A stretch of 64,000 nucleotides of DNA from Terriglobales bacterium (GTDB lineage: Bacteria; Acidobacteriota; Terriglobia; Bryobacterales; Bryobacteraceae). Position numbers and translations under genes: made by a program. The notes beneath the pieces are model-generated. The model saw only the letters and a program-made list of their open reading frames with translations, did not search any database and had not been told where the DNA came from. The stretch's first letter is position 1. The number at the start of each line of letters is the position of its first letter. The stretch lies in assembly GCA_027485675.1 (NCBI GenBank), contig JAIXQP010000007.1:186001-250000 (forward strand), read 5' to 3'. Of the stretch, positions 46,575 through 59,901 are shown piece by piece.

Positions 46575-47342
46575 ATGCCCTACGTCGACCTCACGCTCCA
46601 CTCCGGCGGCCACTGCCGCGAGCGCGCCTGGTTCGTCGACCGTGCCCGTGGCTTTGAGAAAATCACCCTCCCCGCCTTGGTCGCCGCCCTGCGGCATCCG
46701 CAGGCCGGCCTGCTCCTCTTCGACACCGGCTACGGCCCCCACCTCGCCCACTCCCGCAGCTTCCCCGCCCGCCTCTACCGCCGTCTCCTGCCCTTCGCCC
46801 TCGCCGCGGACCCGCTCCCCACCGACGGCCTCTCCGCCATCATCGTTTCCCACTTCCACCCCGACCACATCGGCGGCCTCCGCTCCCTGCCCGCCGTGCC
46901 GCTCTACCACTCCCGCGAAGGTCTCGCCCAACTCCGCGCCCTCTCGGCCTACCAACAGGCCCGCCACGCCTTTCTCCCCGAACTCCTTCCCCCCACGTTC
47001 CCCTCGCGCGCCATCGAAGACTGCCCCCGCGTCACCCCTCCCAATCTCGCGCCCTTCACCGAAGCCTACGATCTTCTGCACGACGGCTCCCTCCTCGCCG
47101 TCCCGCTGCCCGGCCACGCCCTCGGCCAGCACGGTCTCCTCTGCCGCCACCGCGATGGCTCGGAAACGTTCCTCGTCGCCGATGCCGCCTGGGTGCTCAC
47201 CAATATCACCGAACTCTCCCTCCCCGCCGAACCAGCCCTCCGCCTCCTCGGCCACCGCCCCACCATCATCGAAACCCTCCGCAAGCTCCACGCCCTCCAT
47301 CGCCGCCGCCCGGACCTCCCGCTGCTCCCCTCCCATGTTTGA
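46575..47342 (+). CDS. MBL-fold metallo-hydrolase
   Basis: 255 residues, no signal peptide. The metallo-beta-lactamase zinc motif is HFHPDH (about residue 95) in AIIVSHFHPDHIGGL. The remaining ligands are probably in PLPGHALGQHGL (His) and FLVADAAWVL (Asp). Relatives include lactonases and esterases. The downstream adenylate-forming gene overlaps its end by 8 bp, so their products likely act in one pathway, possibly hydrolysing or editing an activated or lactonised acyl product. It starts 22 bp after the CobN-like gene. Confidence 0.87.
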   Translation: MPYVDLTLHSGGHCRERAWFVDRARGFEKITLPALVAALRHPQAGLLLFDTGYGPHLAHSRSFPARLYRRLLPFALAADPLPTDGLSAIIVSHFHPDHIGGLRSLPAVPLYHSREGLAQLRALSAYQQARHAFLPELLPPTFPSRAIEDCPRVTPPNLAPFTEAYDLLHDGSLLAVPLPGHALGQHGLLCRHRDGSETFLVADAAWVLTNITELSLPAEPALRLLGHRPTIIETLRKLHALHRRRPDLPLLPSHV

Positions 47343-48324
47343 GCTCCTCCGCGCCTATCTCGCCGCGCGCCGCCTCCGCACGCTCCGCGTACCCGCCGTC
47401 CCCCCACTCCAAATCGCCGAAGCCCAAGCCCGCGCCTACGCCGAGCAGGAACTCGCCACCGGCATCTCCCCTCTCCCCCCGTACAGCTTCGGCCTTTCCT
47501 CCGGCACCACCGGCGCCCCCGGCGTCTTCATCACCACCCCCGCCGAACGCGCCCGCTGGGCCGGCAACATCCTCGGCAAATACATCCCGCCCCACCGGCT
47601 CCCCGGCCTCCGCGTCGCCCTCTTTCTCAAACACAACAACCGCCTCTACTCGGGCGTCCGCGGTCTCCGCTACTACGGCCTCACCCCGCCCTATCCCGAT
47701 CTCGCCTCCTGGCGTCCCCACGTCCTCGTCGGCCCGCCCAGCGTCCTCCTCCAACTACCCGACGGCCTCCGCCCTCACACCGTTCTCGCCGGCGCCGAGC
47801 CCCTCTTCCCCGCCGATCGCGAAGCCTTGACGCAGAAGTTCCAAGCCGCCCCCCGCGGCCTCTATCAGGCCCGCGAAGGCTTCCTCGCCTATGGCTGCCC
47901 GCACGGCCGCTACCACCTCAACGAAGACCTCCTCTCCTTCCGCCTCCAACCCTTCACCCACGATCCCCGCCGCGTCCTCCCCCACATCACGGACCTCGTC
48001 CGCCAAACCCAGCCCCAAACCAATCGCCGCGTCGATGACGTACTCCTCCTCGCCCCCTCCTGCCCCTGCCGCAGCCCGTTCACCGCCGTCGAAACCGTCG
48101 AAGGCCGCCTGCAGGACCTCATGGTCTTCCGGAACCGTCCCCCCAAGTTCCCCCTCGAACTCGCGCCCCTCCTGCCCCCCGGCGCGGCGCTCTTCCAGAA
48201 CGACTTCGACGACTTCACCGTCCAGTTCGACTACGCCCCGCCCCCCGGCCACAAGCACCGCCGCTTCCAGCGCCTGTTCGATCCCCACAACACCCTCATC
48301 GAACCATGGCTGCAACCCGCGTAA
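47335..48324 (+). CDS. Adenylate-forming enzyme, F390 synthetase/PaaK-like
   Basis: 329 residues from the ATG at 47335 (MFELLRAYL), which overlaps the MBL gene stop by 8 bp. The ATP-binding loop SFGLSSGTTGAPGVFITT (about 52-69) is that of phenylacetate-CoA ligase/coenzyme F390 synthetase relatives. GLYQAREGFLAYGCPHG follows near residue 185. It is shorter than PaaK (about 430), and the usual C-terminal lid is reduced (GRLQDLMVFRNRPPKFP). It probably activates a carboxylate as an acyl-AMP for transfer to an unknown acceptor. The stop overlaps the convergent GT1 gene by 29 bp. Confidence 0.85.
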   Translation: MFELLRAYLAARRLRTLRVPAVPPLQIAEAQARAYAEQELATGISPLPPYSFGLSSGTTGAPGVFITTPAERARWAGNILGKYIPPHRLPGLRVALFLKHNNRLYSGVRGLRYYGLTPPYPDLASWRPHVLVGPPSVLLQLPDGLRPHTVLAGAEPLFPADREALTQKFQAAPRGLYQAREGFLAYGCPHGRYHLNEDLLSFRLQPFTHDPRRVLPHITDLVRQTQPQTNRRVDDVLLLAPSCPCRSPFTAVETVEGRLQDLMVFRNRPPKFPLELAPLLPPGAALFQNDFDDFTVQFDYAPPPGHKHRRFQRLFDPHNTLIEPWLQPA

Positions 48325-49429
48325 GAAACGCCTCCCGCGGCCGGTACGCCCGCGCCGCCTTCTGCAACTCCGGCAGCCGTGGCCACTCCCGCGCGAGCAA
48401 CTCCTCTACGGTTCCCTGCCGCGTCCCCGCGCCGAACCATTCCACGCGCGCCGCAAAGTCGAAATGGTCGTAGTCCTGCGGCCACACTAAACTCGGCTTC
48501 CCTTCGAGAATCGCCGCGTAGGCGATCCCCGCGCCGCCATGGTGAATCACCGCGTCGAACTGCCCCAAGTCCCGCGCATACGGCACAAACGGATACTCCT
48601 TCGACCCCGCCACCACGATCGAAACACCCGGCGCCTCCGGCACCCGCAGCCGCTCCTTGGCCCAGAACAAATGCGTCCCCAGCGTCAGCAGAACCTTCTT
48701 GCCCGCCGGGTACGTCACGGCCGGCCACTCCTCCGGGTCCTCCACCAGCGGCCCGATCATCTCGAAGCTGGCCGGCCAATCCCGTTCAAACTCCAACTCC
48801 TGAATCCCCAACCCCAAAATCGCCTCCGGCGAATACACCACCTCCGTCCCGTCCGCCCGCCACAACTCCTCCACCCCGGCGGCCCGGAACTCGGCCGCTA
48901 ACCAGGCCTTCACCCCCCGCTTGAAGCCCCGCACCGCCAGCCGCCCCAGCCAGTCCCGCAAGCCCCACCCCGGCGTCCACCCCCCGCAGTAGGACGGCGT
49001 TCCCCGCTTCGTTTCGAGCACCAGCGGGCTCGGCATCGTCGTCACCCACGGCAGGCCCATCTCCTGCGCCACAAACCCGCCCACCGGCGCCACGAAATCG
49101 GCCACCACCACGTCCGGCCGCCAGCCCGCGAACAGCCCGCGCAAGTCGTTGCGGATTCCCGGCAATAGGCCCAGGTTCGCCCGCAACTGCTGCATGAGGA
49201 GTCGCGGATTGCTGCCTACTTTGTACGGTGGGTTGGCAATCGCCTCGAGCGCTCCGTCCGGCACGCTCGTGAGCGGCAGCGTCTCCAGTCCCCGCTTGGC
49301 CAATACGGCCCGCTTCCGCTCGCCGGTCACGAACGCCACCGTATGCCCCGCCGCCCGCGCCGCCTCCGCCAGCGGCACCTGCGGGTACAGGTGGCCCGCG
49401 TAGGGCGGCGCGACAAACACGATCCTCAT
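48296..49429 (-). CDS. GT1-family (UGT/MGT-like) glycosyltransferase
   Basis: 377 residues from the ATG at 49429, just after which MRIVFVAPPYAGHLYP gives the GT-B acceptor-side motif. The C-terminal donor motif is FDAVIHHGGAGIAYAAILEG and then PQDYDHFDFAARVEWFGAG, as in macrolide and sterol glycosyltransferases that use NDP-sugars on small hydrophobic acceptors. The start overlaps the previous gene by 4 bp. In this cluster it could glycosylate a lipid or secondary metabolite. The acceptor is not visible. Confidence 0.92.
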   Translation of the reverse strand: MRIVFVAPPYAGHLYPQVPLAEAARAAGHTVAFVTGERKRAVLAKRGLETLPLTSVPDGALEAIANPPYKVGSNPRLLMQQLRANLGLLPGIRNDLRGLFAGWRPDVVVADFVAPVGGFVAQEMGLPWVTTMPSPLVLETKRGTPSYCGGWTPGWGLRDWLGRLAVRGFKRGVKAWLAAEFRAAGVEELWRADGTEVVYSPEAILGLGIQELEFERDWPASFEMIGPLVEDPEEWPAVTYPAGKKVLLTLGTHLFWAKERLRVPEAPGVSIVVAGSKEYPFVPYARDLGQFDAVIHHGGAGIAYAAILEGKPSLVWPQDYDHFDFAARVEWFGAGTRQGTVEELLAREWPRLPELQKAARAYRPREAFLTRVAAMVR

Positions 49430-50001
49430 CGCACCACCTCCCAATAATCCAAATGCCCACAGCGCACGCGCCGGTCCACGCGGCCCCGATAGAACAGGCG
49501 GCTCCACCCGTCCCGGTCGCCCATCACCACCTCGGCCGGCACCCGCAATTTCCCGAAGCAAGCCGGCCCCAGGGCCAAGACCTCCGCCTCGCCCCGCAAC
49601 TCCTCCCAGACGCAGTTCAGTAACTGCAGCCCGCAACTCCCCGTGACGATCTGTAGCCGCTCCTGCGTCGTATCCATCGCCCGCTGCAGCACCCGCCGCA
49701 CCACCTCCCGATACTCACCCGAAGCCATCGACATCGCCACCTGCGCCGCGTTCCGCCAACTCGCCCCGATCATCGAGGTCTCTTCGAACGCGGCCCCCGT
49801 CATCGCCGCGTGATAGGGAAACCCCGCCCGCAACGCCGTCCACCCCGGCGGCGTCACCGCATCGAGAAACGCCTCCTGCGCCGGGCTCAAACGAGCCGAC
49901 CGCCACGAACTCTGCCCGGTCAGGATCATCACCCGCCGCTCCACCGGCACGAGCAAGCTCCCGGCGTCATCCAGTTCCCGCAGCCGCGCGAAGTAGTTCA
50001 C
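49426..50001 (-). CDS. Unrecognised protein with alpha/beta-hydrolase-like Cys-Asp-His arrangement
   Basis: 191 residues starting with GTG at 50001, which overlaps the GT2 stop (GTGA). It starts VNYFARLRELDDAG; further upstream the same frame is only a shadow of the GT2 gene. Candidate active site: IVTGSCGLQLLN (GxCx elbow, about residue 119), VVMGDRDGWSR (Asp, about 157) and VRCGHLDYWEV (His near the end). The order nucleophile-acid-His fits an alpha/beta hydrolase with Cys in place of Ser, but the fold is short. It is coupled on both sides to glycosyltransferase genes, so an acyl transfer or hydrolysis step on a glycolipid is plausible. Confidence 0.6.
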   Translation of the reverse strand: MNYFARLRELDDAGSLLVPVERRVMILTGQSSWRSARLSPAQEAFLDAVTPPGWTALRAGFPYHAAMTGAAFEETSMIGASWRNAAQVAMSMASGEYREVVRRVLQRAMDTTQERLQIVTGSCGLQLLNCVWEELRGEAEVLALGPACFGKLRVPAEVVMGDRDGWSRLFYRGRVDRRVRCGHLDYWEVVR

Positions 50002-51062
50002 CGGTAGCGGATCCTCCCGTCCGAGACATCGATCCGCCGGCTCCGCCAACTCATCCGTCCCGGCCGCACCAGCGAACTCGCATAGAGCACCGGCAGACTC
50101 AGATCCGCCACCACCTCGAACAGCACATCGACTACGCCGCTCCGCACCCCGGCCCACCGCCACAAACAAACCCGGTTCACCAAGGCCTTCCCGAACAGCA
50201 CCCACCCCCAACCCGTCGCGACGAGCACCCAAGGCAGCAGAGCCGGCAGCACCACCAAGGCAAACGAACTCACCGTTAGATTCTCCCGCAGATAGCGATT
50301 CGCGAAGATCAGCCACCGCCGCATCACCCGTCCGCAATGTGCCGCCGAGGCGATGGTCATCGTCACCCGCGCAAACACCGGAGCCTGCCGGATCGACTTC
50401 CCCTGTCCCTCGTACAACTGCGCCATGGCGTAGTCATCGGTCAGGCACTCCACCACGGCGCCGAACCCGCCCACCGCTCGCAGCGTCTCCGCCGGCGTCG
50501 CATAGATCATCCCGTTGATGGTCCGCTGCGCCCCTACCGCCGCTGCCGGCAGATAGGTCAGAATCGCCGACCCGTTCACGAACCCGCCGACGAAGCGTTC
50601 CCAAATCGTTCCGGCTTCGACGAACACCGGCAACCCGGTCACGAGGTCCGCCCCCGTCAAACGCCGCAGCGAACTCTCGTCAATCCGCGTATCGTCATCG
50701 AGCACCACAACCATCCCTTCCCGAATATCCACCCGCCCCAGTTTCGCAATCTTCGGATTCTCCCCCTGCGCCGGCGGAGGCCCCACCATCACCGTCACGC
50801 GTTCGTCCGCGATCCGCCCCGCGATCTCCCGTCCCAACGGATCGTCCTCATCCACGAGCCGAACAAACCGCACCCCGGGATTCCCGGCCAGGTTCCCCCG
50901 CAAACACCGCTCCAGTTTCGGATCCCCCGCGAGAATCGGCTGCAACACGGTAACCGGCCCCGCCCAAGCCTCCCCCGCGCCCCGCCGCACCATCCACCAA
51001 GCCAACCCCACCCGCACCGCCAGCAGCGCTAGATAAACCGCGACTGCGAGATTCCACGCCAC
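49998..51062 (-). CDS. GT2-family glycosyltransferase, HpnI/ceramide glucosyltransferase-like (GT21)
   Basis: 354 residues. An N-terminal membrane helix (LAVAVYLALLAVRVGLAWWMV) precedes the catalytic domain. Signatures: VTVLQPILAGDPKLERCL, VVLDDDTRIDESSLRRL (D2), ECLTDDYAMAQLYEGQG (D3), and CGRVMRRWLIFAN corresponding to (Q/R)xxRW. Two or three C-terminal membrane segments follow (SSFALVVLPALLPWVLVA and on). These are features of ceramide glucosyltransferases and hopanoid HpnI. It probably adds a sugar to a membrane lipid at the cytoplasmic face. No hopanoid cyclase or sphingolipid gene is in the window. Confidence 0.88.
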   Translation of the reverse strand: MAWNLAVAVYLALLAVRVGLAWWMVRRGAGEAWAGPVTVLQPILAGDPKLERCLRGNLAGNPGVRFVRLVDEDDPLGREIAGRIADERVTVMVGPPPAQGENPKIAKLGRVDIREGMVVVLDDDTRIDESSLRRLTGADLVTGLPVFVEAGTIWERFVGGFVNGSAILTYLPAAAVGAQRTINGMIYATPAETLRAVGGFGAVVECLTDDYAMAQLYEGQGKSIRQAPVFARVTMTIASAAHCGRVMRRWLIFANRYLRENLTVSSFALVVLPALLPWVLVATGWGWVLFGKALVNRVCLWRWAGVRSGVVDVLFEVVADLSLPVLYASSLVRPGRMSWRSRRIDVSDGRIRYR

Positions 51063-51068
51063 AGGCCG

Positions 51069-51719
51069 TTAAGCCAGCCAGCGCTCAATCCAGTCGCCCA
51101 GGCGACTCGGCGTAGCAGTTTCAACGTCAATCAAGCCTTTGGCAATCGCCACGTCCATCTTCATGCCCGGTTCTTCCTGCCAAGCTAACCAGGTGTGAAA
51201 CGTTGCCTTGGAAACCTTTCGGTCACTGAATTTCTTCACTGCTGGCGGAAGTTCCGCAATCACCTGTCCGGCGTGTTGCACTCCCTCGTTCGCCTGTTCC
51301 GCCACCGACCTCAGCACCAAGTCTTCGAGGCTACCCGCGCCCTGGTTGTCTGGCATCCCCCACACCCCGACCGACGGCAACTCTCCTTGTGAAAGATGCA
51401 CCAAACCCTCGCCTGGGAGTCTCTCGGGCAAACCCTCGTACCGCAAACGGACCAGACTTCCCCGTAGCCGCTCCCAGCGTCGGTCATTGGGCTGGTCAAG
51501 ATCGAACACGATTCCCAGAATCGGATCTCCTGGCTTCAGGTATGTGCTAACCCCAGTGATCAATTTGTCGAAGCCCTTCATGTCAACGATGGTTACGATC
51601 TTCTCGCCCTTGACCAGCTTGTCTCCATTCGAGACGAATCCTCGTCGGCGCAATAAACCGCGAATAAAGGATTCGTCGTCTTTCCCCTCGACAAGAAGTT
51701 GTGGGCTATTCTCCGGCAT
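51069..51719 (-). CDS. TOPRIM-like DUF3226/DUF4435-type protein (partner of the AAA ATPase)
   Basis: 216 residues. LLVEGKDDESFIRGLLRRRG (about 8-27) carries the TOPRIM Glu, and ILGIVFDLDQPNDRRW (about 67-82) the DxD motif expected for metal-dependent nuclease or toprim chemistry. The rest (GVWGMPDNQGAGSLEDLVL, HTWLAWQEEPGMKMDVAIAKG) fits the DUF3226 group. It starts 5 bp after the AAA ATPase gene. ATPase plus TOPRIM pairs split the OLD nuclease architecture in two and are seen in phage defence (PARIS, OLD-type); that role is inference here. Confidence 0.8.
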   Translation of the reverse strand: MPENSPQLLVEGKDDESFIRGLLRRRGFVSNGDKLVKGEKIVTIVDMKGFDKLITGVSTYLKPGDPILGIVFDLDQPNDRRWERLRGSLVRLRYEGLPERLPGEGLVHLSQGELPSVGVWGMPDNQGAGSLEDLVLRSVAEQANEGVQHAGQVIAELPPAVKKFSDRKVSKATFHTWLAWQEEPGMKMDVAIAKGLIDVETATPSRLGDWIERWLA

Positions 51720-51724
51720 TTGAT

Positions 51725-52762
51725 CTACCGCAGTTCCTTACCGGTCTCTTCAGCAAACTGCTGCTCCTCTTCGGAGTACTCCGCCGCGACCACCTGACCC
51801 TTCCATTGCCGCAAGCTAATCAACCTGCCTTCGACGTCCGTCCTCTCTTGACAAGCCTTAGCAAAGGCCCGCACGGCATCACTGCTATGCGTCGCTGCGA
51901 ACACCTGAACTTGAAACTCCTGCGCCGCCGCCACCAGAAATCGCCAGAAAGTGGACTGAACCGAGTAGTGCAGTCCCGTCTCCACCTCATCAATGAGCAA
52001 GGTGCCACCAGACACAGACACCGCTGCCAGAGCGAGTCCAAAGACGCGCCACACACCCTCGCCCATCGACCGAATCGATACCGGCGCGAGACTGCCCTTC
52101 AGCTTCAAGATCACCCTGGTCGAAGATCCCAGCGGGCTCACCGCCACTCGCTCGATCTCCGGAAAGCACTCCCCTAAGAACTTGTTCAGTTGCTGCTCTT
52201 TCGGCGTCAAGACAACACTCGCCCACATGTCGCCGATCTCCGCCTGGGAGAACCCATGTAGCCCAACGTGGATGCATCTTGATTCCGGCTCAAAGGAGAT
52301 TCTGCCAACTTCCTCACCAAATGCTCGGATTCGGAACATCCCTGCCGGAGAAGAGACCTCGTAGGCAGGTTCACCGCTGCGGGGCTCTTCGTGGGGGTCA
52401 AGCGGCACCAGCTTTCCCGCTTGCCCATCTTCCGATGTCTTCCGATAGAAGCCAAACTTTACACTCACGCTGCGAGAGTCGTTTGCGGTGACCCGGAAAA
52501 CCAACTCCCGGGAATTCCAATTGAATAGTCGTTCGTCAACGCCCAACTTCGACCATGGAGACCCGCCACTGGTCTCCGAACGCCCCGCCACAAGGGACTG
52601 CATTGTGGAGTACGAGCCGTTTGTCGCCAGAACACGAACCGCTTCAAGAAACGCGCTCTTGCCGGCATTATTCCGCCCCACAACTAGGTTCACATGCCCC
52701 AATTGCGACACCTGCAACCGAGAGAACAGTCTGTAGTTCTCAATCGTAATGGACGAAATCAT
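51725..52762 (-). CDS. OLD-like AAA (ABC-type) ATPase
   Basis: 345 residues. Walker A GRNNAGKSAFLEAV (about 29-42) follows the typical SMC/OLD N-terminus SSITIENYRLFSRLQ. The signature region is VSIRSMGEGVWRVFGLALA, Walker B TLLIDEVETGLHYSVQ (about 263-278), and the switch His is in VFAATHSSDAV. It has no nuclease domain of its own; the next gene supplies a TOPRIM-like one. Local GC is visibly lower than in the flanking glycosyltransferase genes, which suggests it arrived separately. Predicted cytosolic sensor ATPase of a defence pair. Confidence 0.88.
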   Translation of the reverse strand: MISSITIENYRLFSRLQVSQLGHVNLVVGRNNAGKSAFLEAVRVLATNGSYSTMQSLVAGRSETSGGSPWSKLGVDERLFNWNSRELVFRVTANDSRSVSVKFGFYRKTSEDGQAGKLVPLDPHEEPRSGEPAYEVSSPAGMFRIRAFGEEVGRISFEPESRCIHVGLHGFSQAEIGDMWASVVLTPKEQQLNKFLGECFPEIERVAVSPLGSSTRVILKLKGSLAPVSIRSMGEGVWRVFGLALAAVSVSGGTLLIDEVETGLHYSVQSTFWRFLVAAAQEFQVQVFAATHSSDAVRAFAKACQERTDVEGRLISLRQWKGQVVAAEYSEEEQQFAEETGKELR

Positions 52763-52790
52763 GTCCCTAGCGTACCTCGATCAACCGGCC

Positions 52791-53720
52791 CTAAGACTTT
52801 CCCTTCTGCCATTCGACAAACCTCCGCAAGCTCTCCCCATTCGACACCGGCACCCGCCCCAACACCGCATTCGCCTTCCCCACATCGAACGTCTTCGCAT
52901 GCGCCATCACCTCCACCCCGAATCGCGTAATCGGCGGCTCCCACCATCCCGTCGCCGCCGACGCCCACTCCATTCCCCGCGCCAATCCCATCGCCACCCC
53001 CACCGGCACCCGCCGCCCCAACTCCGGATACCCCAACCCCCGAAACACCTCGTTCAGAAACGTCCACAACCCCACCGGCTCCCCATTCGTCACGTTGAAA
53101 TCCCCCGTCGCCCCCAACGCTAACACCCGCTCGAGCAGAAAACACAGGTTCTCGATATAGATCAAATCCCCCACCGGCTCCCGCACCCCAAACCGCGGCA
53201 GCATCCCCTTCTTCGCCGCCCGCAACAGCCGCGGAAACAGCACCGTATCCTCCGGCCCGAACACCGCCCGCGGCCGCACCACCGTCCACCGCCTCCCCGA
53301 CGCCCGCACCAGCCGCTCCGCCTCCAACTTCGTCGCCGCGTAGGCATTCAACGGCCGCTCCGCCACCGGCGACTCCTCCGTCAACCCCCACTGATCCCCC
53401 CAGCGGTAGTAGACGCTGCTCGACGAAACAAACACGAAGTGGTCCGCCTCCACCCGCAGCGTATTCGCCGTCGCCCTCACGTTCTGCGCCACGAACTCCG
53501 CCGGCCGCCCCCACGGCGCCGACCGCGCCGCGCAATGCACCACAGCGTCAAACCGCCCCGGCACCACCCCCGTCGTCAAATCAAACGGAACAAACTCACA
53601 ACAAGCCCCGCTCCGCGCCGCCCCGCGGCTCACCCCCGTCACGGAATACCCGCGCCCCCGCAGGTAGCGCCCCAAGGCCCCACCCACAAACCCGCTGACC
53701 CCGGTTACGAGTACCCGCAA
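52791..53720 (-). CDS. NAD-dependent epimerase/dehydratase (extended SDR)
   Basis: 309 residues from a TTG at 53720, chosen because GGAGG lies 5 nt upstream and the Rossmann strand begins at once (LRVLVTGVSGFVGGALGRYL). The extended-SDR motifs are VVHCAARSAPWG, FVSSSSVYYRWG and the catalytic YxxxK in AYAATKLEAERLV (about residue 140). RPRAVFGPED and LIYIENLCFLLERV follow. The family includes 3-beta-HSD, HpnA and sugar-nucleotide epimerases, so the substrate may be an NDP-sugar or a lipid. It begins one base after the stop of the GT4-GT4-TE gene. Confidence 0.9.
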   Translation of the reverse strand: MRVLVTGVSGFVGGALGRYLRGRGYSVTGVSRGAARSGACCEFVPFDLTTGVVPGRFDAVVHCAARSAPWGRPAEFVAQNVRATANTLRVEADHFVFVSSSSVYYRWGDQWGLTEESPVAERPLNAYAATKLEAERLVRASGRRWTVVRPRAVFGPEDTVLFPRLLRAAKKGMLPRFGVREPVGDLIYIENLCFLLERVLALGATGDFNVTNGEPVGLWTFLNEVFRGLGYPELGRRVPVGVAMGLARGMEWASAATGWWEPPITRFGVEVMAHAKTFDVGKANAVLGRVPVSNGESLRRFVEWQKGKS

Positions 53721-53721
53721 C

Positions 53722-56700
53722 TCACCCTCCGCGCAGGATCCCCGCCAACTCCTCAAAGAACGTCCCTTCCCCCTGGAAGTAGAAGTGCCCCCCGGCGAAC
53801 ATCCGCTGCGAAAACGCTCCCGCCGTCACCTCGCCCCACGGCGCCAAATGCTCCGCCGTCACCTGCGGATCCTCCGCCCCGCCCAACGCCACCACCGGCG
53901 CCGTCAACAACTCCCCCGGCTCATAAACCCACCGCCGGAACAGCCGCGTATCCCGCCGGAACGCCGGCAGCAACGCCGTCAATCGCTCCCGCGGCGCCCC
54001 GCCCAGCCGCTCCAACTGCGCCAACAACTCCGCATCGCTCGGCTCCGCCGGCGGCACATAGCCAATCCGGAACTTCGGCGCCCGCGCCGCCGAAACCACG
54101 AGCCGCGCCGGAGCCACCCGCCGCGCCACTTCAAACGCCAACCCCGCGCCCATCGAATGCCCGAAGAACACCGCGTCCTCCGTCAACAACGGCTTCACCT
54201 GCCGGGCCAACTGCTCCACCAAATCCCCTATCCCCGCCCACTCCCGCTGCGGCAGCCGAATCGGGATCACCGCGAACTCCCGCCCCAACTTCTCCTGCCA
54301 ACCCCGGTAAGCCAGCGGCCCCGCCCCCGCCCACGGAAAGCAGAAGACCCGCCGCCCCTGCGCCGGCACCGCCGGCATCCACGCCGCGCGCTCCTGCAGC
54401 CGCAACTCGAGCAACCGCCGCCGGTCCGAACTCAAACCCGCCAGCGGCCCCGCCCCCACCGTCCGCACCGCCGCGCCCCGCTTCGGCCGGTGCAGCAGGC
54501 TCTCGCAGTAGGCCTCAAACGGCAGCACGTTCAGATTCTCCATGTAGTGCAGCGCCTTCTCCCGCGAAAGCGCCGACAGCTTCTCCCAATGCGCCCGGTC
54601 CGTCGTCAACTTCCGCAGCGCCTCAACCCACGGCCCCACGTTCTGCGGCGGCACCTGCGCCACCGGCACCATATGCTCGTCCACCGACCCCCGGTACCCC
54701 GTCACCGGATTCACCGGCAGCAAATACGGTACGCCCAGCATCGCCTCGTGCAGCCCGCCCACGTTCGCGCCCAGCACCGGCACGCCCCGCGACAAACTCT
54801 CGAGCACCATCCGGCTCCGCGCCTCCGCCCACACCGATGGCACCAGCGTCACCCGCGTCTCGGCCAGCAACTCGTCAATGTTGTCCGTCCGCGGCAGGAT
54901 GCGAATGTTCTGCCGCTTCTGCAACTCCACCAAATCCTGCTCCGTCGTGCCCCACGATGCGACGGCGCCAAACGTCACCTCCGGCATCGCATCCGCCAGC
55001 CCCAACAGAATCGAAATCCCCTTCACCGCGCAAGGGTTCACCATCAGCACATACGGATTTTCGAACCGCCCCAACAGCGGCGCCGGCCCCGGCTCCAGCA
55101 GCGAAATCGGCACGTGGATCGCCTGCGTCAATCCGCCATGCTCCCGCGCATAACCCGCCACGTAGTGCGAAACGCCCACCACGCCGTCCGCCTGCCGGAG
55201 CAACGCCGTCCGCTCCTCGTGCACCCCGGAGCTATCCGGCCCGAACGGCACCGCAATCGTCGCCCGGATCAGATACACCACGCGCGCCCGCGGCGCCCGC
55301 ACCGCCAGGTCAAACAGCAGCTGCGCCGGGTCATCCGTCGACGTCACAATCACGTCCGGATCAAACGCATCAATCTGCGCTTGGAAATAGGGCCGCCACA
55401 ACGGGCTCCGCGTCAGCGTCCGCACGTCCACCCCATGCAGCGAGAACGTCACGTCGCTCTCTCCCACCGCCGGGCTCACGCCCCGCGTCGCCAGCGCGTT
55501 CAGATACGACGCATGGTCCGGCTCGCCGAAGGTCTCCACCCGCGTCACCACCCGCACATGATGGCCCCGCGCCGCCAGCGCCTCCATCAGCAACCGGTTC
55601 GACTTATCGCCGCCCCCCGCCGACGGATAGTACAGCGAGTTATGCGCCAGCAGCACCCGCAGCTTCCGCCGCGATACCAGGTACCGCGCCAAGTCATTCG
55701 CGTCCAACGCCGAAACAAACCGCTCCGCCGCCGCCCGCGACTTCGCCGCCTCGGCCTCCCACGCCGTCCGGTTCGTCGTCAACTCTTCGAGCGCCGCCAT
55801 CCACAGCGTCAGATCCTGCTCCACGTCCACCGGCCGCGGCATATGGTTCTCATCGAAGTCCGACAAGTACTTCGTGATCGGTTGCACCGGAATCACGTAT
55901 CCCGTGCCCGCCTTCGCCTCCGCCAACCCGCCCGAGTTCGACGCCACCACCGGCAACCCGCGCAGCATCGCCTCCATCGTGATCAGCCCGAACCCTTCGT
56001 ACCAAAGCGAAGGCATCAGCAACAGCCGCGCCTGCGCCAGCACGTCTTCGATATCCGGCACCGATTCGAACACCGTCACATTCGGCAGCGCGCCCAGCAA
56101 CTCCCGGTCCGCCGACGTCGTCCCCCATCCCGCCAGCGCCGCGAACTCCAAATGCGGCATCCGCCGTGCCAGATTCACGAGCACCGTCACGCCCTTCACA
56201 ACGCACGGGTTCACCATCAACACATACCGGTTCTCGAACCGGCCCAGGTTCCGCCACGGCGCCGTCCCGTAGATCGGCGGATGAATCACCACCGGCTGCA
56301 CGCCCAGGTGCTGCTTCACGTACGCCGCCATGTGATGGCCAATCACCACCACGCCCCGCGCCTGCCGCACCAGCGCCGTCGCCGCCGCGTCCGGGTACCA
56401 GCTCTCCGGCCCGAACGGCATGAACTGCGGCGTATGCGCCACGAAGATCAACCGTCCCGGCGCCACGCGAAACGCCTCCCGCAGCAGCACATGGCTCAGG
56501 TCTTCGCTCGAAACCAACACCCAATCCGGCTTCCACTTCTCAATCTCCGCGGCCAACTGGTCCACATGCCGCGTCAACTCCGGCACCCGCAGAATCGAAA
56601 TGCCCCGCCGCGTCGTCTCCCCCGCCGCGTCGTGCGCCGCACACACCACGCGCACCGCGTGCCCGGCCGCCGCTAGCGCCTCGAGCCAAATCAGATTGCT

Positions 56701-56760
56701 CCGTGTCGACCCGCCCCGTGGCGGCTCATACGAAGCGTTGGAAGTTAAGAGAACGCGCAT
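53722..56760 (-). CDS. Tandem GT4 glycosyltransferase fused to a type II thioesterase
   Basis: 1012 residues, three domains. GT4-1 (about 1-365): LTSNASYEPPRGGSTRSN, donor motif LWYEGFGLITMEAMLRGLP with EX7E. GT4-2 (about 367-745): LAHNSLYYPSAGGGDKSN, VWAEARSRMVLESLSRGVP with EX7E. Thioesterase (about 785-1012): VFCFPWAGAGPLAYRGWQ, nucleophile FFGHSMGAGLAFEV, Asp in LGGAEDPQVT, His in FAGGHFYF. Type II thioesterases normally hydrolyse acyl groups from carrier proteins of NRPS or PKS systems, and a carrier is encoded just upstream (16-bp overlap). I know of no described enzyme with this order. It could glycosylate and then release a carrier-bound group. Confidence 0.87.
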   Translation of the reverse strand: MRVLLTSNASYEPPRGGSTRSNLIWLEALAAAGHAVRVVCAAHDAAGETTRRGISILRVPELTRHVDQLAAEIEKWKPDWVLVSSEDLSHVLLREAFRVAPGRLIFVAHTPQFMPFGPESWYPDAAATALVRQARGVVVIGHHMAAYVKQHLGVQPVVIHPPIYGTAPWRNLGRFENRYVLMVNPCVVKGVTVLVNLARRMPHLEFAALAGWGTTSADRELLGALPNVTVFESVPDIEDVLAQARLLLMPSLWYEGFGLITMEAMLRGLPVVASNSGGLAEAKAGTGYVIPVQPITKYLSDFDENHMPRPVDVEQDLTLWMAALEELTTNRTAWEAEAAKSRAAAERFVSALDANDLARYLVSRRKLRVLLAHNSLYYPSAGGGDKSNRLLMEALAARGHHVRVVTRVETFGEPDHASYLNALATRGVSPAVGESDVTFSLHGVDVRTLTRSPLWRPYFQAQIDAFDPDVIVTSTDDPAQLLFDLAVRAPRARVVYLIRATIAVPFGPDSSGVHEERTALLRQADGVVGVSHYVAGYAREHGGLTQAIHVPISLLEPGPAPLLGRFENPYVLMVNPCAVKGISILLGLADAMPEVTFGAVASWGTTEQDLVELQKRQNIRILPRTDNIDELLAETRVTLVPSVWAEARSRMVLESLSRGVPVLGANVGGLHEAMLGVPYLLPVNPVTGYRGSVDEHMVPVAQVPPQNVGPWVEALRKLTTDRAHWEKLSALSREKALHYMENLNVLPFEAYCESLLHRPKRGAAVRTVGAGPLAGLSSDRRRLLELRLQERAAWMPAVPAQGRRVFCFPWAGAGPLAYRGWQEKLGREFAVIPIRLPQREWAGIGDLVEQLARQVKPLLTEDAVFFGHSMGAGLAFEVARRVAPARLVVSAARAPKFRIGYVPPAEPSDAELLAQLERLGGAPRERLTALLPAFRRDTRLFRRWVYEPGELLTAPVVALGGAEDPQVTAEHLAPWGEVTAGAFSQRMFAGGHFYFQGEGTFFEELAGILRGG

Positions 56761-58691
56761 AAACGGGTTATTTCGGACCGAACCTCATCATCCGACATCG
56801 ACTCAATCTCACGAATCACCGCGGCCACCTCCGCCTGGTCGTACGTGCTCAACTGCCGCGTCTCCACAATCTCCGCCAACTTCGCCAGCGTCGTGTCCGC
56901 CGAATAGACATCGTCCATCGACAGCTCCATCCCGAACTCCTCATGCACCCGCGTCACCAGCAGCACCGCCAGCAGCGAGTGCCCCCCCAGGTCGAAGAAG
57001 TTGTCCTCCGTTGAAATCGCCGGCTGCCCCAGCAACTCCGCCCAGATCGTCGCCAACCGCCGCTCGGCATCGGTCACCGGCGGGTTCGCCACCGGCCGCG
57101 CCGGAGCCGCCTGCCTCTGCTCCGCCCGCATCGCCGCCACAATCCGCTCCACGGTATCGAGGTGCGTCGCAATCCTCTGATACTCGTGGAACCGGCCGTT
57201 CGCCACCACCGGCGCCGCCTCCGCCACCGGCGCCGCCGCCGGAGCCGTAAACTCCACCGCGCCCATCTGCGCCGCGCCCAGCGTCGCCGTCCCCTGCGTC
57301 TGCCCCGTCAACTCCCGGAAAAAGGTTTGCGCCGGAGCGTTCCGCGCCGTCGGGACCAATTCAAACGTCAACGCCCCAAAGTGCTCGCCCAACCACCGCA
57401 CCACGGCATGTTCCACGCCCCGGCCCAGCACCCGGCAACTCAGCAGGAAGGTATCCACAATCCCGTCCTGAATCACCAACAGCCCCGTGAACCCGTAATC
57501 GCCAAACCGGTCCTTCACATGCACCGAATAAACCGGCAACCCCGCCAGCTCCGCCTCCGTTCGCCGCCGCGTCGTGAAGTTGAACTGGTTGGTCCGCTGC
57601 GTAATCTGCGCCGCCCGCGGCAGCTCATGCGGATGCAGCCGGTGCACGTCCACCTGCAGTTGCAGCGTCTCGTAGAAATGGCCCAGGCTCGCCGCCGCCG
57701 CGAACTCCTGCTGCAGTTGATAGCTCGCCGCCCGGTTCCGGTCCGCCTCGGTCACCACCGGATGGTCGAACGCCCAAACGTGGTCGAGATAGTGCGGAAT
57801 GCCGGTCTCCGGCAGCGTCAACCCCAACACCTCCGGCGCGCCCTCGGCCAACTCGCCAATCTCTTTCGGGTTGTCGTCGAGCAGGATGAACGAGTCCGCC
57901 CCCAGCGAAAGCTCCGCGGCCATCTGCCGCAGCCCTTCCGACTTCGGTGCCCACGAAAGCCGCTGCGCCGTAATGTGTTCCCGCTTCAGCAGCATCTCCG
58001 AATGCGCCGCGAACGTCTGCCACACATCGTCCGGGTTGTTCTTTGAAGAGAGCGTGAGCAGCATGCCCATCTCCCGCTGCCGCAGCAGAAACTCCTGCAG
58101 CGTGCGCCGCGGCTCGTCGATCGTCACACCGGTCGGCCCGTCTTCGCCGCAGACCCCGGCCCACAGCGTGTGGTCACAGTCGAGCGAGATCACCTTGAAC
58201 GGGGGCCGCTGCAAGGCATGCAGCAGCCGCGCAATCGCCGTCCCCAGCGCCGCAAAGTACGCAGGGGTGTAGGGAATCCGGCCCAGCCGGTCCGCCGCCT
58301 CGTCCGCCCACTCCTCCACCGGGTACAGCGCGGTATCGACGACGAAGACATTCGGCCGCGGCTCCACGCGCACCTGCCGCGGCGGGCAGATGGCCAGCAG
58401 CGTCGGCACCGCAAACCGCTGCGTCTCCAGGGTGGCGAGCAGTTCGTCCAGCCGCGCCTGCTCGTCGGCCGCCGTCGCCCCCTCAAATTGCGCGAGGTCT
58501 GACGACCGAACCAGCACGACATTCGCCCCATCGCGGTTCCGCGCAAACAAGCCGCCGGGGTCCAGCACGGTCTGCAGCACCTGGTTGAAGGGAGCGAACT
58601 CAATCGCCCACGGCTCCCCAAGTTGGCGAGCCCAAAACTCCAACACCGGCTGGATCGGCTCGGCGGTAAACGTGGCGCTAATGCAGATCAA
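56745..58691 (-). CDS. FkbH-type HAD glyceryl transferase fused to a phosphopantetheine carrier domain
   Basis: 648 residues. Residues about 5-145 are the FkbH N-terminal part (FTAEPIQPVLEFWARQLG, EFAPFNQVLQTVLDPGG). Residues about 165-450 are the HAD core: VISLDCDHTLWAGVCGEDG, LLTLSSKNNPDDV, FILLDDNPKEIGEL, then DRFGDYGFTGLLVI. A linker leads to a carrier domain (about 545-625) with the prosthetic Ser in DNFFDLGGHSLLAVLLV. FkbH enzymes take a glyceryl unit from 1,3-bisphosphoglycerate onto a carrier thiol. The only close start is TTG at 58691, directly after an in-frame stop and without a clear ribosome site. No ketosynthase or condensation partner is found. Confidence 0.9.
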   Translation of the reverse strand: MICISATFTAEPIQPVLEFWARQLGEPWAIEFAPFNQVLQTVLDPGGLFARNRDGANVVLVRSSDLAQFEGATAADEQARLDELLATLETQRFAVPTLLAICPPRQVRVEPRPNVFVVDTALYPVEEWADEAADRLGRIPYTPAYFAALGTAIARLLHALQRPPFKVISLDCDHTLWAGVCGEDGPTGVTIDEPRRTLQEFLLRQREMGMLLTLSSKNNPDDVWQTFAAHSEMLLKREHITAQRLSWAPKSEGLRQMAAELSLGADSFILLDDNPKEIGELAEGAPEVLGLTLPETGIPHYLDHVWAFDHPVVTEADRNRAASYQLQQEFAAAASLGHFYETLQLQVDVHRLHPHELPRAAQITQRTNQFNFTTRRRTEAELAGLPVYSVHVKDRFGDYGFTGLLVIQDGIVDTFLLSCRVLGRGVEHAVVRWLGEHFGALTFELVPTARNAPAQTFFRELTGQTQGTATLGAAQMGAVEFTAPAAAPVAEAAPVVANGRFHEYQRIATHLDTVERIVAAMRAEQRQAAPARPVANPPVTDAERRLATIWAELLGQPAISTEDNFFDLGGHSLLAVLLVTRVHEEFGMELSMDDVYSADTTLAKLAEIVETRQLSTYDQAEVAAVIREIESMSDDEVRSEITRLCAFS

Positions 58692-58700
58692 ATCGTTAGT

Positions 58701-58826
58701 TTAGCAACCCACTCGGCAACCGGCCGCTGAACCCGCCAGGGGAATCGGATCCCCGTGCCGCACACAATCGAGCAGATAGGCCTTCACCGCGTCGGCCTTG
58801 TTTCGCAGGGCACACTCTTGCGTTGC
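58701..58826 (-). pseudogene. HicB antitoxin C-terminal remnant
   Basis: In one minus frame the last 40 codons read TQECALRNKADAVKAYLLDC and then VRHGDPIP before a stop. This resembles the end of HicB antitoxins (EEALxNxxEAxExYLxxxxxxGxPIP). No HicB start or HicA toxin is present. The fragment overlaps the tail of the DUF433 gene in another frame. Confidence 0.4.
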
Positions 58827-59041
58827 TCTCCTGTGCCACTCCTCGCCACAAAATCCAACACCGCCTCCACCTGTTCCCGCGTCACGGGAAAGTTCTCCAT
58901 GACCTCCCCAATCGAAGAGCACTTCAGGTTCTCAAAGACAGCGGAGACGGGCACCCGGCTTCCGCGAAACAACCAAGCCCCGCTCAACTTGCCGGGAATC
59001 CTCTCCACCGCCGGGCACTGTGACCAATCGAGACTAGGCAT
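58784..59041 (-). CDS. DUF433 family protein (antitoxin-like) with altered C-terminus
   Basis: 85 residues from the ATG at 59041. The segment AVERIPGKLSGAWLFRGSRV, then PVSAVFENL, IGEVMENFP and VTREQVEAVLDFVARS is a complete DUF433 winged-helix core. Such genes are usually antitoxins paired with a DUF5615 PIN-like toxin, but no toxin follows. The last 16 residues (TGEQRKSVPCETRPTR) are unlike the family and overlap the HicB remnant in another frame, so the 3' end may have been replaced by recombination. Confidence 0.75.
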   Translation of the reverse strand: MPSLDWSQCPAVERIPGKLSGAWLFRGSRVPVSAVFENLKCSSIGEVMENFPVTREQVEAVLDFVARSGTGEQRKSVPCETRPTR

Positions 59042-59067
59042 CCTGCATGCTCTTTCTACCAAGCCTG

Positions 59068-59901
59068 TTAGTGCCCCGGCTGCATCAACTCCCCCGCCTC
59101 AATCGCCACATTCAGCGTATTCCGCTTCGTCGGAATCGGACACGTCGCATACGGCGTAAACACACACGGCGGGTTCTTCGCGATATTCATCTCCACCTCC
59201 ACCTTGTTGTCCGGCCCCGGCAGCGGCGCATACAGCATCCGCCCCCCGCCATACGTCTGCTTCCCCGAAGTCTTATCCCGAAACACAAAGAACAGCTGCC
59301 CCTCGTCAATCACCGGCTCCAAAGTCACCCGCTGCCCGTTCACCGCAAACTCCACCTCCCCCGGGCTCTCATACTTCAGCGTGTTCCCCGTCACATCCGA
59401 CACCATCACAGTCTTCTTCTGCGGGTACGGCTTAAACTGTCCCGTCAACGAATACTGCGGCCGAATCGGAAACCACTTCGTCCCCGCAAACTCCCGCCGC
59501 ATCTTCGATTGCGGATCCCGCATCCGAATCCCGATCTTGCCATTCCGGTTGATGACGAACAACGTCATCCGGTCAATCGTCAACAGGTCCGGCTTCGCCC
59601 CGTCTTTGTCCGATTGCAGCATCTTCGCCGGCCCGTTCACCGGCTTCCACGTCACCCGTTCCCTCACCCGTTCAAACGTTCCCGCCACCGCCGGCCCCGC
59701 CGGCAAAACGATCTTGTTCGAAGCGGCAGTCCCCGCCGGATTCGCCCCCTCTTCGAGCCAGTACAGTCCGGCCACCGAGAGCCATCCGGTATCGCCCTTG
59801 AGTCCGGTTTCGTACTTCGCCCTCCATTGGGCGACCTTCTCGGTCAACGGATCCGCCGCCAACAAAGGCAGCACAGCAAGAAACAGGACACGGGCGCGCA
59901 T
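59068..59901 (-). CDS. DUF1684 domain-containing secreted protein
   Basis: 277 residues. Signal peptide MRARVLFLAVLPLLAADP. DUF1684 landmarks: QWRAKYETGLKGDTGWLSVA, LYWLEEGANPAG, LFFVFRDKTSGKQTYGGGRM, and the C-terminal NPPCVFTPYATCPIPTKRN with two conserved Cys. Function unknown; the family is common in soil bacteria and is predicted extracytoplasmic. It is divergent from the SMP-30 gene, the two starts being only about 23 bp apart. Confidence 0.9.
   Translation of the reverse strand: MRARVLFLAVLPLLAADPLTEKVAQWRAKYETGLKGDTGWLSVAGLYWLEEGANPAGTAASNKIVLPAGPAVAGTFERVRERVTWKPVNGPAKMLQSDKDGAKPDLLTIDRMTLFVINRNGKIGIRMRDPQSKMRREFAGTKWFPIRPQYSLTGQFKPYPQKKTVMVSDVTGNTLKYESPGEVEFAVNGQRVTLEPVIDEGQLFFVFRDKTSGKQTYGGGRMLYAPLPGPDNKVEVEMNIAKNPPCVFTPYATCPIPTKRNTLNVAIEAGELMQPGH

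Follow-up and report, generated by a model that had tools for sequence, protein, structure and literature searches.

The available portions of the reports on vioprolide and corramycin describe a nonribosomal peptide synthetase (NRPS) starter with the domain order fatty-acid-AMP ligase (FAAL), acyl carrier protein (ACP), condensation (C), HAD and thiolation (T), in which an FkbH domain puts glyceryl on the T domain (PMC8949500) and in which the loaded glycerate is, in vioprolide, esterified to a fatty acid (PMC10099666, PMC8949500). Here we describe a related unit in a Terriglobales bacterium: two overlapping genes within a 64,000-nucleotide stretch of contig JAIXQP010000007.1 (the window), one encoding an FkbH-carrier protein (P0002) and the other a protein in which two glycosyltransferase (GT) domains of family GT4 are followed by a type II thioesterase (TE; P0001). 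The window shares the FkbH-T core of the vioprolide and corramycin starter, and three related loci (L077, L078 and L079) have its entire domain order. In those pathways, however, the acyl-glycerate primes a long line of NRPS and polyketide synthase (PKS) modules, whereas the unit described here has GT and GT-TE genes instead of peptide extension. Because the FAAL-ACP-C half was tested for and found absent, the window unit is not a vioprolide-type module. Its nearest known counterpart is the lipo-glycerate NRPS starter, from which it differs by its two GTs and type II TE and, mostly, by the lack of the acylating half. We conclude that the pair forms a genuine, conserved unit that derives from an NRPS and works like a lipo-glycerate starter turned into a pathway of its own.

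Other described systems share parts of this chemistry. According to the available descriptions, cystomanamides, suomilides and dysinosins are also built from FkbH-loaded glycerate on an NRPS carrier, and the cystomanamide and suomilide pathways include glycosylation; all three, however, are full NRPS lines (cystomanamide C carries fructose on a lipopeptide), and a GT-GT-TE protein does not appear in those descriptions. Glucosylglycerate synthesis by GpgS/GpgP, the start of mycobacterial methylglucose lipopolysaccharide, uses free 3-phosphoglycerate and is carrier-free; its product class, a glycosyl-glycerate, is likely also that of our unit, which differs from it by its carrier protein. Lincosamide synthetase, too, couples carrier chemistry with a sugar unit outside a normal assembly line, but there an adenylation (A) domain activates an amino acid, which an amide bond links to an amino sugar, and the available text does not mention FkbH (PMC4351081). 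The earlier note on this DNA, made from the sequence alone, knew of no described system with these two fusions. The FkbH-carrier fusion by itself is not new, as FkbH-T and C-FkbH-PCP modules have been published; the GT-GT-TE protein, by comparison, was not found in the portions of the descriptions that we compared. Searches of the open literature, with subscription papers mostly outside their reach, returned nothing on FkbH in Acidobacteria or on Bryobacter nonribosomal peptides together with glycosyltransferases, and for glucosylglycerate with acyl carrier protein only papers unrelated by title. The comparison as a whole draws on the available portions of PMC8949500, PMC10099666, PMC12304814, PMC13122637, PMC6520454, PMC9581180 and PMC4351081.

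Both open reading frames (ORFs) lie exactly where the earlier note had placed them, and its account of their contents, FkbH plus carrier in one protein, two GT4 domains plus a type II TE in the next, and a 16-bp overlap between the genes, was confirmed (Table 1). P0002 matches the FkbH model TIGR01686 with 224.8 bits, above the curated cut-off of 146.65, and its carrier domain matches PF00550 with 61.8 bits. Across the 69 aligned rows, FkbH residues D171, D173, T175 and C419 are each kept in all 69, C181 is kept in 68, and the carrier Ser572 is again kept in 69. We take the DxDxT motif of HAD enzymes and the cysteine of SCRxLGRG (C419) to be the functional residues of FkbH. Because Ser572 is present in every row and 14 of 85 loci have a gene resembling a phosphopantetheinyl transferase (PPTase) next to the core, the P0002 carrier is very likely phosphopantetheinylated. 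To judge by its position, the stretch preceding the FkbH domain is probably the region named NEX in the literature; an N-terminal extension of FkbH-like proteins is described in the available part of PMC12304814. The window genome holds a second FkbH gene on contig C29 (L128, 8815-10743), whose 642-aa product is matched by the FkbH and HAD-IIIC models alone among NCBIfam models, and a carrier was not found in it.

Of the five GT Pfam models with matches in P0001, four match two stretches of the protein, and the two domains, GTA and GTB, are 37% identical to each other. The first glutamate of the EX7E motif of GTA is present in 74 of 74 rows and the second in 73 of 74 (Q in L079), and in GTB both glutamates are present in all 80 rows. 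The TE domain, which matches PF00975 with 101.4 bits, retains the triad serine in 80 of 80 rows and the histidine in 77 (three gaps), with D in 69 and E in 7 at the aspartate position (three gaps, one G). If, as family knowledge leads us to assume, these positions, together with those of FkbH and the carrier serine, are the catalytic ones, the unit's enzymes look active from residue conservation. The best solved structure for the TE profile is RifR (3fla; 205 bits), followed by other type II enzymes, with ObiF1 at 51 bits; the domain thus resembles type II rather than type I thioesterases. Type II thioesterases such as RifR are normally free-standing editing enzymes; that of P0001 is instead fused to a GT4 domain. 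The GTs resemble WaaG, BshA and MshA-type GT4 enzymes weakly, and the search for close structure templates for them gave weak matches at most.

Table 1. Features of the P0001-P0002 locus, in window coordinates
Feature	Position	Strand	Details
P0001, GT4-GT4-thioesterase protein	53722..56760	(-)	ATG start, 1012 aa
Type II thioesterase domain of P0001	53767..54351	(-)	residues 804-998; S869/D964/H992; PF00975
Second GT4 domain of P0001 (GTB)	54376..55668	(-)	about residues 365-795; EX7E E646/E654; GT Pfam matches
First GT4 domain of P0001 (GTA)	55672..56760	(-)	residues 1-363; EX7E E255/E263; GT Pfam matches
Overlap of P0001 and P0002 coding sequences	56745..56760	(-)	16 bp; same -16 gap in L033-L037 and L125-L127
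P0002, FkbH-carrier protein	56745..58691	(-)	TTG start, 648 aa
Phosphopantetheine carrier domain of P0002	56868..57059	(-)	residues 545-608; attachment Ser572; PF00550
FkbH domain of P0002	57294..58199	(-)	residues 165-466; TIGR01686; D171/D173/T175 and C419 invariant
N-terminal extension of P0002	58200..58691	(-)	residues 1-164

The P0001-P0002 pair is a conserved unit. A draw of 200 genomes of the order was searched with P0001 at a match limit of E <= 1e-30, which lets in at least one weak match (G136, 6.7e-33); 85 genomes matched, every one of them in the window's own family. We read 85 loci, which do not correspond one for one to these genomes and include the window, L037 (from a named metagenome-assembled genome, MAG) and G165; gene ends in the relatives are approximate, as the calls come from a home-made scorer. 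An FkbH-carrier gene stands with GT/TE genes in 69 of the 85. These comprise 43 loci with separate FkbH, GT and GT-TE genes, 23 with FkbH and a single GT-TE protein (a fused GT-GT-TE in 21), and three in which FkbH and GT genes are followed by a GT-TE gene that ends at the contig end. The GT-GT-TE is one protein in 22 loci and GT-TE is a separate gene in 58; the operon thus comes with two or three genes, and the fusion seen in the window is one of its forms. Gaps between core genes run mostly from -23 to +12 bp. Since 69 of 85 loci have the genes together, mostly abutting or overlapping, their association is more than chance, and the co-occurrence across genomes raised in the earlier note is borne out. 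The pairwise distances of FkbH and GT-TE also rank together (Spearman 0.78; 62 loci, 1891 pairs, without L037, L098, L113 and L118), as expected for co-inherited genes, a correlation that alone is no proof of interaction. Among the 16 loci outside the 69, an FkbH or carrier fragment lies at the contig edge in three (L103, L113, L115), nine have a contig end at most about 450 bp upstream of their GT genes (L090, L095, L104, L106, L107, L108, L110, L114, L119), one is an NRPS relative (L112/G165), and three are true exceptions, considered below.

Wider searches gave few further copies. In a phylum-wide draw of 396 genomes, which contained few members of the window's family, the window genome and two others passed E <= 1e-80 with a GT-TE profile. 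A collection of named genomes yielded seven P0001 loci: five are in Acidobacteriota MAGs at 81-92% identity, one of which is Candidatus Sulfopaludibacter (Bryobacterales, Solibacteraceae), and one match is to the thioesterase only, at 33%. The seventh, on a 3-kb contig of a Phycisphaerales-labelled MAG (L038), is a P0001 homologue 94% identical to that of the window; as this identity is too close for a true Planctomycete copy, the contig is probably misbinned.

The origin of the unit is suggested by four relatives. In L077, L078 and L079 the FkbH gene encodes an AMP-binding-ACP-C-FkbH-carrier protein of 1827-1849 aa, and in L100, where the contig end cuts the gene, C-FkbH-carrier remains; a GT gene and then a GT-TE gene follow in all four, with the second GT gene of L100 cut before its TE. 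The best single-enzyme NCBIfam models for the AMP-binding parts of L077 and L079 are fatty-acid-AMP ligases, below their cut-offs, and the AMP-binding part of L078 is 63% identical to that of L077. The C domains before FkbH in these four loci carry HHxxxDL or HHxxxDV, not HHxxxDG. The remaining 65 of the 69 FkbH rows, the window's included, have no FAAL, ACP or C. In an FkbH tree of 72 rows made by a quick method, the four rows are sister to the 65 stand-alone rows (94/93). In a GT tree of 49 rows, to which L100 does not belong, the GTA rows form one clade and the GTB rows another (100/100). L077, L078 and L079 form a clade beside the remaining rows in the GTA part; in the GTB part they branch at the base as a grade, L078 with L079 and then L077. 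The GTB clade has as its sister a GT of G165 (L112) fused to a C-A-T-TE NRPS (99/97), and on this basis GTs of the P0001 type occur on carrier-based lines. In that protein (L112, 304-5781) the GT4 is N-terminal to an NRPS with one C, one AMP-binding and one carrier domain and a terminal TE; a gene from elsewhere in the phylum (G250; L136, 10203-19061) has a GT4 N-terminal to two of each, also with a terminal TE. As a simplest story, the unit is likely NRPS-derived with loss of the FAAL-ACP-C half. We call the loss likely only, because the FAAL-type rows are a clade in GTA and a basal grade in GTB; gain in the quartet L077, L078, L079 and L100 is the alternative. Supply of the missing half from elsewhere in the window genome was considered and rejected, as a FAAL-ACP-C orthologue was not found there (the best match, at 28% identity, lies inside the PKS/NRPS line on contig C7).

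The explanation that we consider best, with a probability of about 0.47, is a minimal assembly line, derived from an NRPS, on whose carrier a glycosylated glycerate is built without peptide extension. The P0002 carrier would be phosphopantetheinylated, in 14 relatives probably by the PPTase encoded just after the TE gene. The FkbH domain would then dephosphorylate 1,3-bisphosphoglycerate or 3-phosphoglycerate and transfer glyceryl to the carrier thiol, as is known from other FkbH systems. While still on the carrier, the glyceryl hydroxyls would receive one or two sugars from the two GT4 domains, and the TE fused to the second GT would hydrolyse the thioester to give free (di)glycosyl-glycerate. 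This product may be exported: 14 of the 85 loci have a major facilitator superfamily (MFS) gene that is convergent with the TE gene and abuts it. Where FAAL-ACP-C is present, the glycerate would carry a fatty acyl ester as well, and by analogy with vioprolide some members of the family probably make acylated products. We infer glycosylation on the carrier from the way the operon is built, from the fusion of GT to TE and from the NRPS-fused GT that is sister to GTB.

Several observations weigh against this explanation. Three loci have a GT-TE without FkbH beside it (L070/G135, L075/G152 and L099/G112), and an FkbH orthologue was not found in G112 or G152. In G135 the homologues of FkbH-carrier, GTA and GT-TE are on three contigs (C64, C82 and C102), with GTA and GT-TE well inside theirs, and the unit may be dispersed in that genome. 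The PPTase and MFS neighbours are restricted to some lineages and absent in the window. The GT acceptor could be free or lipid rather than carrier-bound, and the P0001 TE could be solely a proof-reading hydrolase. In the suomilide pathway, according to the available part of that report, glycosylation by BslX is proposed to occur after release (PMC13122637).

A partly similar set outside the family belongs here as well. A plasmid of Streptomyces sp. NBC_00441 encodes an FkbH-carrier protein 38% identical to P0002 and one GT4 of the P0001 family (37-38%). A second GT, a free ACP, a TE, a free C-domain protein, a GH38 protein and sugar-nucleotide genes are also present (L133, 4414-23672; L149, 4300-15209). 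The set spans about 20 kb, with the FkbH-carrier, GT4, TE, free ACP and free C-domain genes within 16 kb. Similarity between its TE and that of P0001 was not detectable. About 30 kb from the FkbH gene the plasmid has a type I PKS (ketosynthase (KS) gene at 48-54 kb, neighbours to 59 kb), whose neighbours are annotated as an enediyne biosynthesis protein and DUF1702; AMP-binding genes lie further off. A record-wide KS search and the annotation revealed this PKS, and the set therefore probably feeds a larger product. The set and the PKS are possibly one cluster: the set may, by analogy, build a carrier-bound, perhaps glycosylated, glyceryl unit, which the free C enzyme would attach to a core of the enediyne type, a joining role that free C enzymes have in known enediyne clusters. 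The Streptomyces set thus supports an FkbH-carrier working with P0001-type GTs, not independence from a PKS. Elsewhere, an Aquisphaera giovannonii plasmid encodes FkbH-carrier-TE in one 1009-aa protein among exosortase and exopolysaccharide genes (L134, 11932-14961). Of two further plasmid FkbH matches, H22 and H26, one lies within a very long PKS-like gene that has PfaD and AT genes next to it, and one is near a KS gene.

An alternative is that the pair is an accessory, supplying glyceryl or glycosyl-glyceryl to a larger product whose synthesis is encoded elsewhere in the genome, a role that we consider highly unlikely. With respect to INDEPENDENCE from PKS/NRPS lines, the window genome itself speaks against our preferred explanation, as its contig C7 carries a long PKS/NRPS, the candidate destination in this species, with one C domain and two very long frames that hold 11 KS matches. 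FkbH units usually feed such lines, and the Streptomyces set, which includes a free C-domain protein that could attach the unit, is close to an enediyne-type PKS. The C7 cluster, however, has its own thioesterase, PPTase and ABC transporter, and the FkbH part of P0002 has no match on C7, where P0002 matches are confined to the carrier region. We surveyed 43 core-carrying genomes, hand-picked among those with FkbH loci and not including the window genome, for C domains and above-cut-off matches to PF16197 (a type I PKS extension domain). A C domain is present in 12 and PF16197 in 12; 18 genomes have one or both, a further point against our reading, and 25 have neither, three of which have a PF16197 match below the cut-off. 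The 25 include assemblies of one (G048, G038), two (G104) and four (G020) contigs. In G052 and G055 the FkbH protein of the unit itself supplies the sole C domain (in G160 there are five others besides it), and the close relative G022, whose P0001 is 92% identical, lacks C domains but has one PF16197 match. Because 25 of 43 genomes lack both, the unit need not serve a PKS or NRPS, and the accessory role is disfavoured as a general explanation. The stand-alone character proposed in the earlier note therefore stands for those 25 genomes, and is tempered by C7 and by the Streptomyces plasmid. For the family, no large PKS/NRPS line emerged that clearly uses these proteins. Near the pair, too, the absence of KS, C and canonical A domains had been read correctly: KS, C and Pfam AMP-binding domains were not found in any of the 14 profile-scanned window ORFs (10 at 40.4-53.8 kb downstream, 4 at 59.1-61.9 kb upstream), and the frame at 46642-48324 matches an F390-synthetase-related adenylating family below its cut-off.

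Two other readings concern the product. The product could be an acylated glycosyl-glycerate, a glycolipid with the sugars as head group, made by FAAL and C acylating carrier-bound glycerate in the four relatives and by an unlinked acyltransferase in the stripped forms. The FAAL-ACP-C-FkbH-carrier and C-FkbH-carrier genes with their downstream GT and GT-TE genes are as this would predict; the same architecture makes the acyl-glycerate of vioprolide, as the available text has it (PMC8949500, PMC10099666). The acylated form may be ancestral, because in the FkbH and GT trees the rows concerned are sister or basal to those of the stand-alone units. The 65 stand-alone rows without FAAL-ACP-C, the failure to find its orthologue in the window genome and the lack of a recognised acyltransferase gene among the recurring neighbour families nonetheless make this reading unlikely for the unit at large. 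Less likely still is decoration of a surface glycan, in which FkbH-carrier would supply glyceryl, the GTs would build a glycan or glycolipid, and the TE would transfer glyceryl or clear misloaded carrier. The Aquisphaera fusion among exopolysaccharide and exosortase genes and the weak likeness of the P0001 GTs to WaaG, BshA and MshA-type enzymes point that way. On the other side, a polysaccharide export or polymerase gene was not recognised among the recurring neighbours, the TE resembles the hydrolytic RifR, and GTB is closer to the NRPS-fused GT than to the other sampled GTs, a sample without a known polysaccharide GT.

Three neighbours recur at one place beside the core; otherwise the neighbours vary between lineages. 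The PPTase-like gene follows the TE gene, overlapping it in 11 of its 14 loci and lying 178-211 bp away in three; in L114 a TE-gene fragment stands between the two. Three of the 14 were profile-tested, two matching PF01648 above its cut-off of 25 bits (L076, 38.2; L117, 41.6) and L091 matching PF22624 (42.6 bits) with PF01648 below cut-off; the others were assigned by BLAST similarity. A gene for a D-2-hydroxyacid dehydrogenase, of a broad family that includes glycerate dehydrogenase, follows the TE gene in nine loci; the one tested matches PF02826, with all NCBIfam models below cut-off. The ends of the convergent MFS and TE genes overlap in 13 of their 14 loci. None of the three occupies its recurring position at the window locus. 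The window genome has two genes of the PPTase (ACPS) superfamily, neither of them beside the pair: one belongs to the C7 cluster, and the other, at C54:180544, lies outside the window.

Downstream of P0001, the window holds an unrelated set at 46575-53756 (MBL-fold, F390-synthetase-related adenylating enzyme, macrolide-type GT, HpnI-like GT21 and an OleD-like short-chain dehydrogenase/reductase (SDR)). Its GT21 and GT genes, and in L034 the SDR, are also near the core in L033 and L034. The SDR gene (52791-53756) was considered as part of the unit and rejected, as it does not adjoin the core in L033 or L034: in both, the gene next after GT-GT-TE encodes 429 aa and is amidohydrolase-like by reading only, and the SDR of L034 is several genes off. 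Between the SDR and GT21-like genes of the window lie AAA_21/AAA_15 ATPase and DUF3226 genes (51069-52762, minus strand), which look like an inserted cassette because the two flanking genes are adjacent in L034. RNA structure was not found at the P0001/P0002 overlap (z = 0.53), and a scan of 52700-59100 gave no promoter-like site and four terminator-like sites, against 5.5 in shuffles.

Taken overall, the interpretation in the earlier note is partly upheld; it did not foresee the FAAL-ACP-C-FkbH-carrier relatives or the derivation from an NRPS. A bolder proposal, which we advance tentatively and would not yet bet on, is that the unit represents stand-alone thiotemplated glycosylation: a carrier-held C3 acid, GT4s dedicated to this carrier-bound substrate that assemble a short glycoside on it, and release by a GT-tethered type II TE, with no condensing, elongating or adenylating domain, inherited in an Acidobacteriota family and descended from a lipo-glycerate NRPS starter minus its acylating half. 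Glycosylation of natural products is usually seen as tailoring of a finished, free molecule. A tiny carrier-bound acid as GT acceptor would, if this is true, add a mode of carrier-based chemistry without elongation, and the unit would show an NRPS starter module turning into an independent pathway. The parts are few and small enough for in vitro reconstitution. The unit would also point to an undescribed glycosyl-glycerate metabolite across a family of soil Acidobacteriota.

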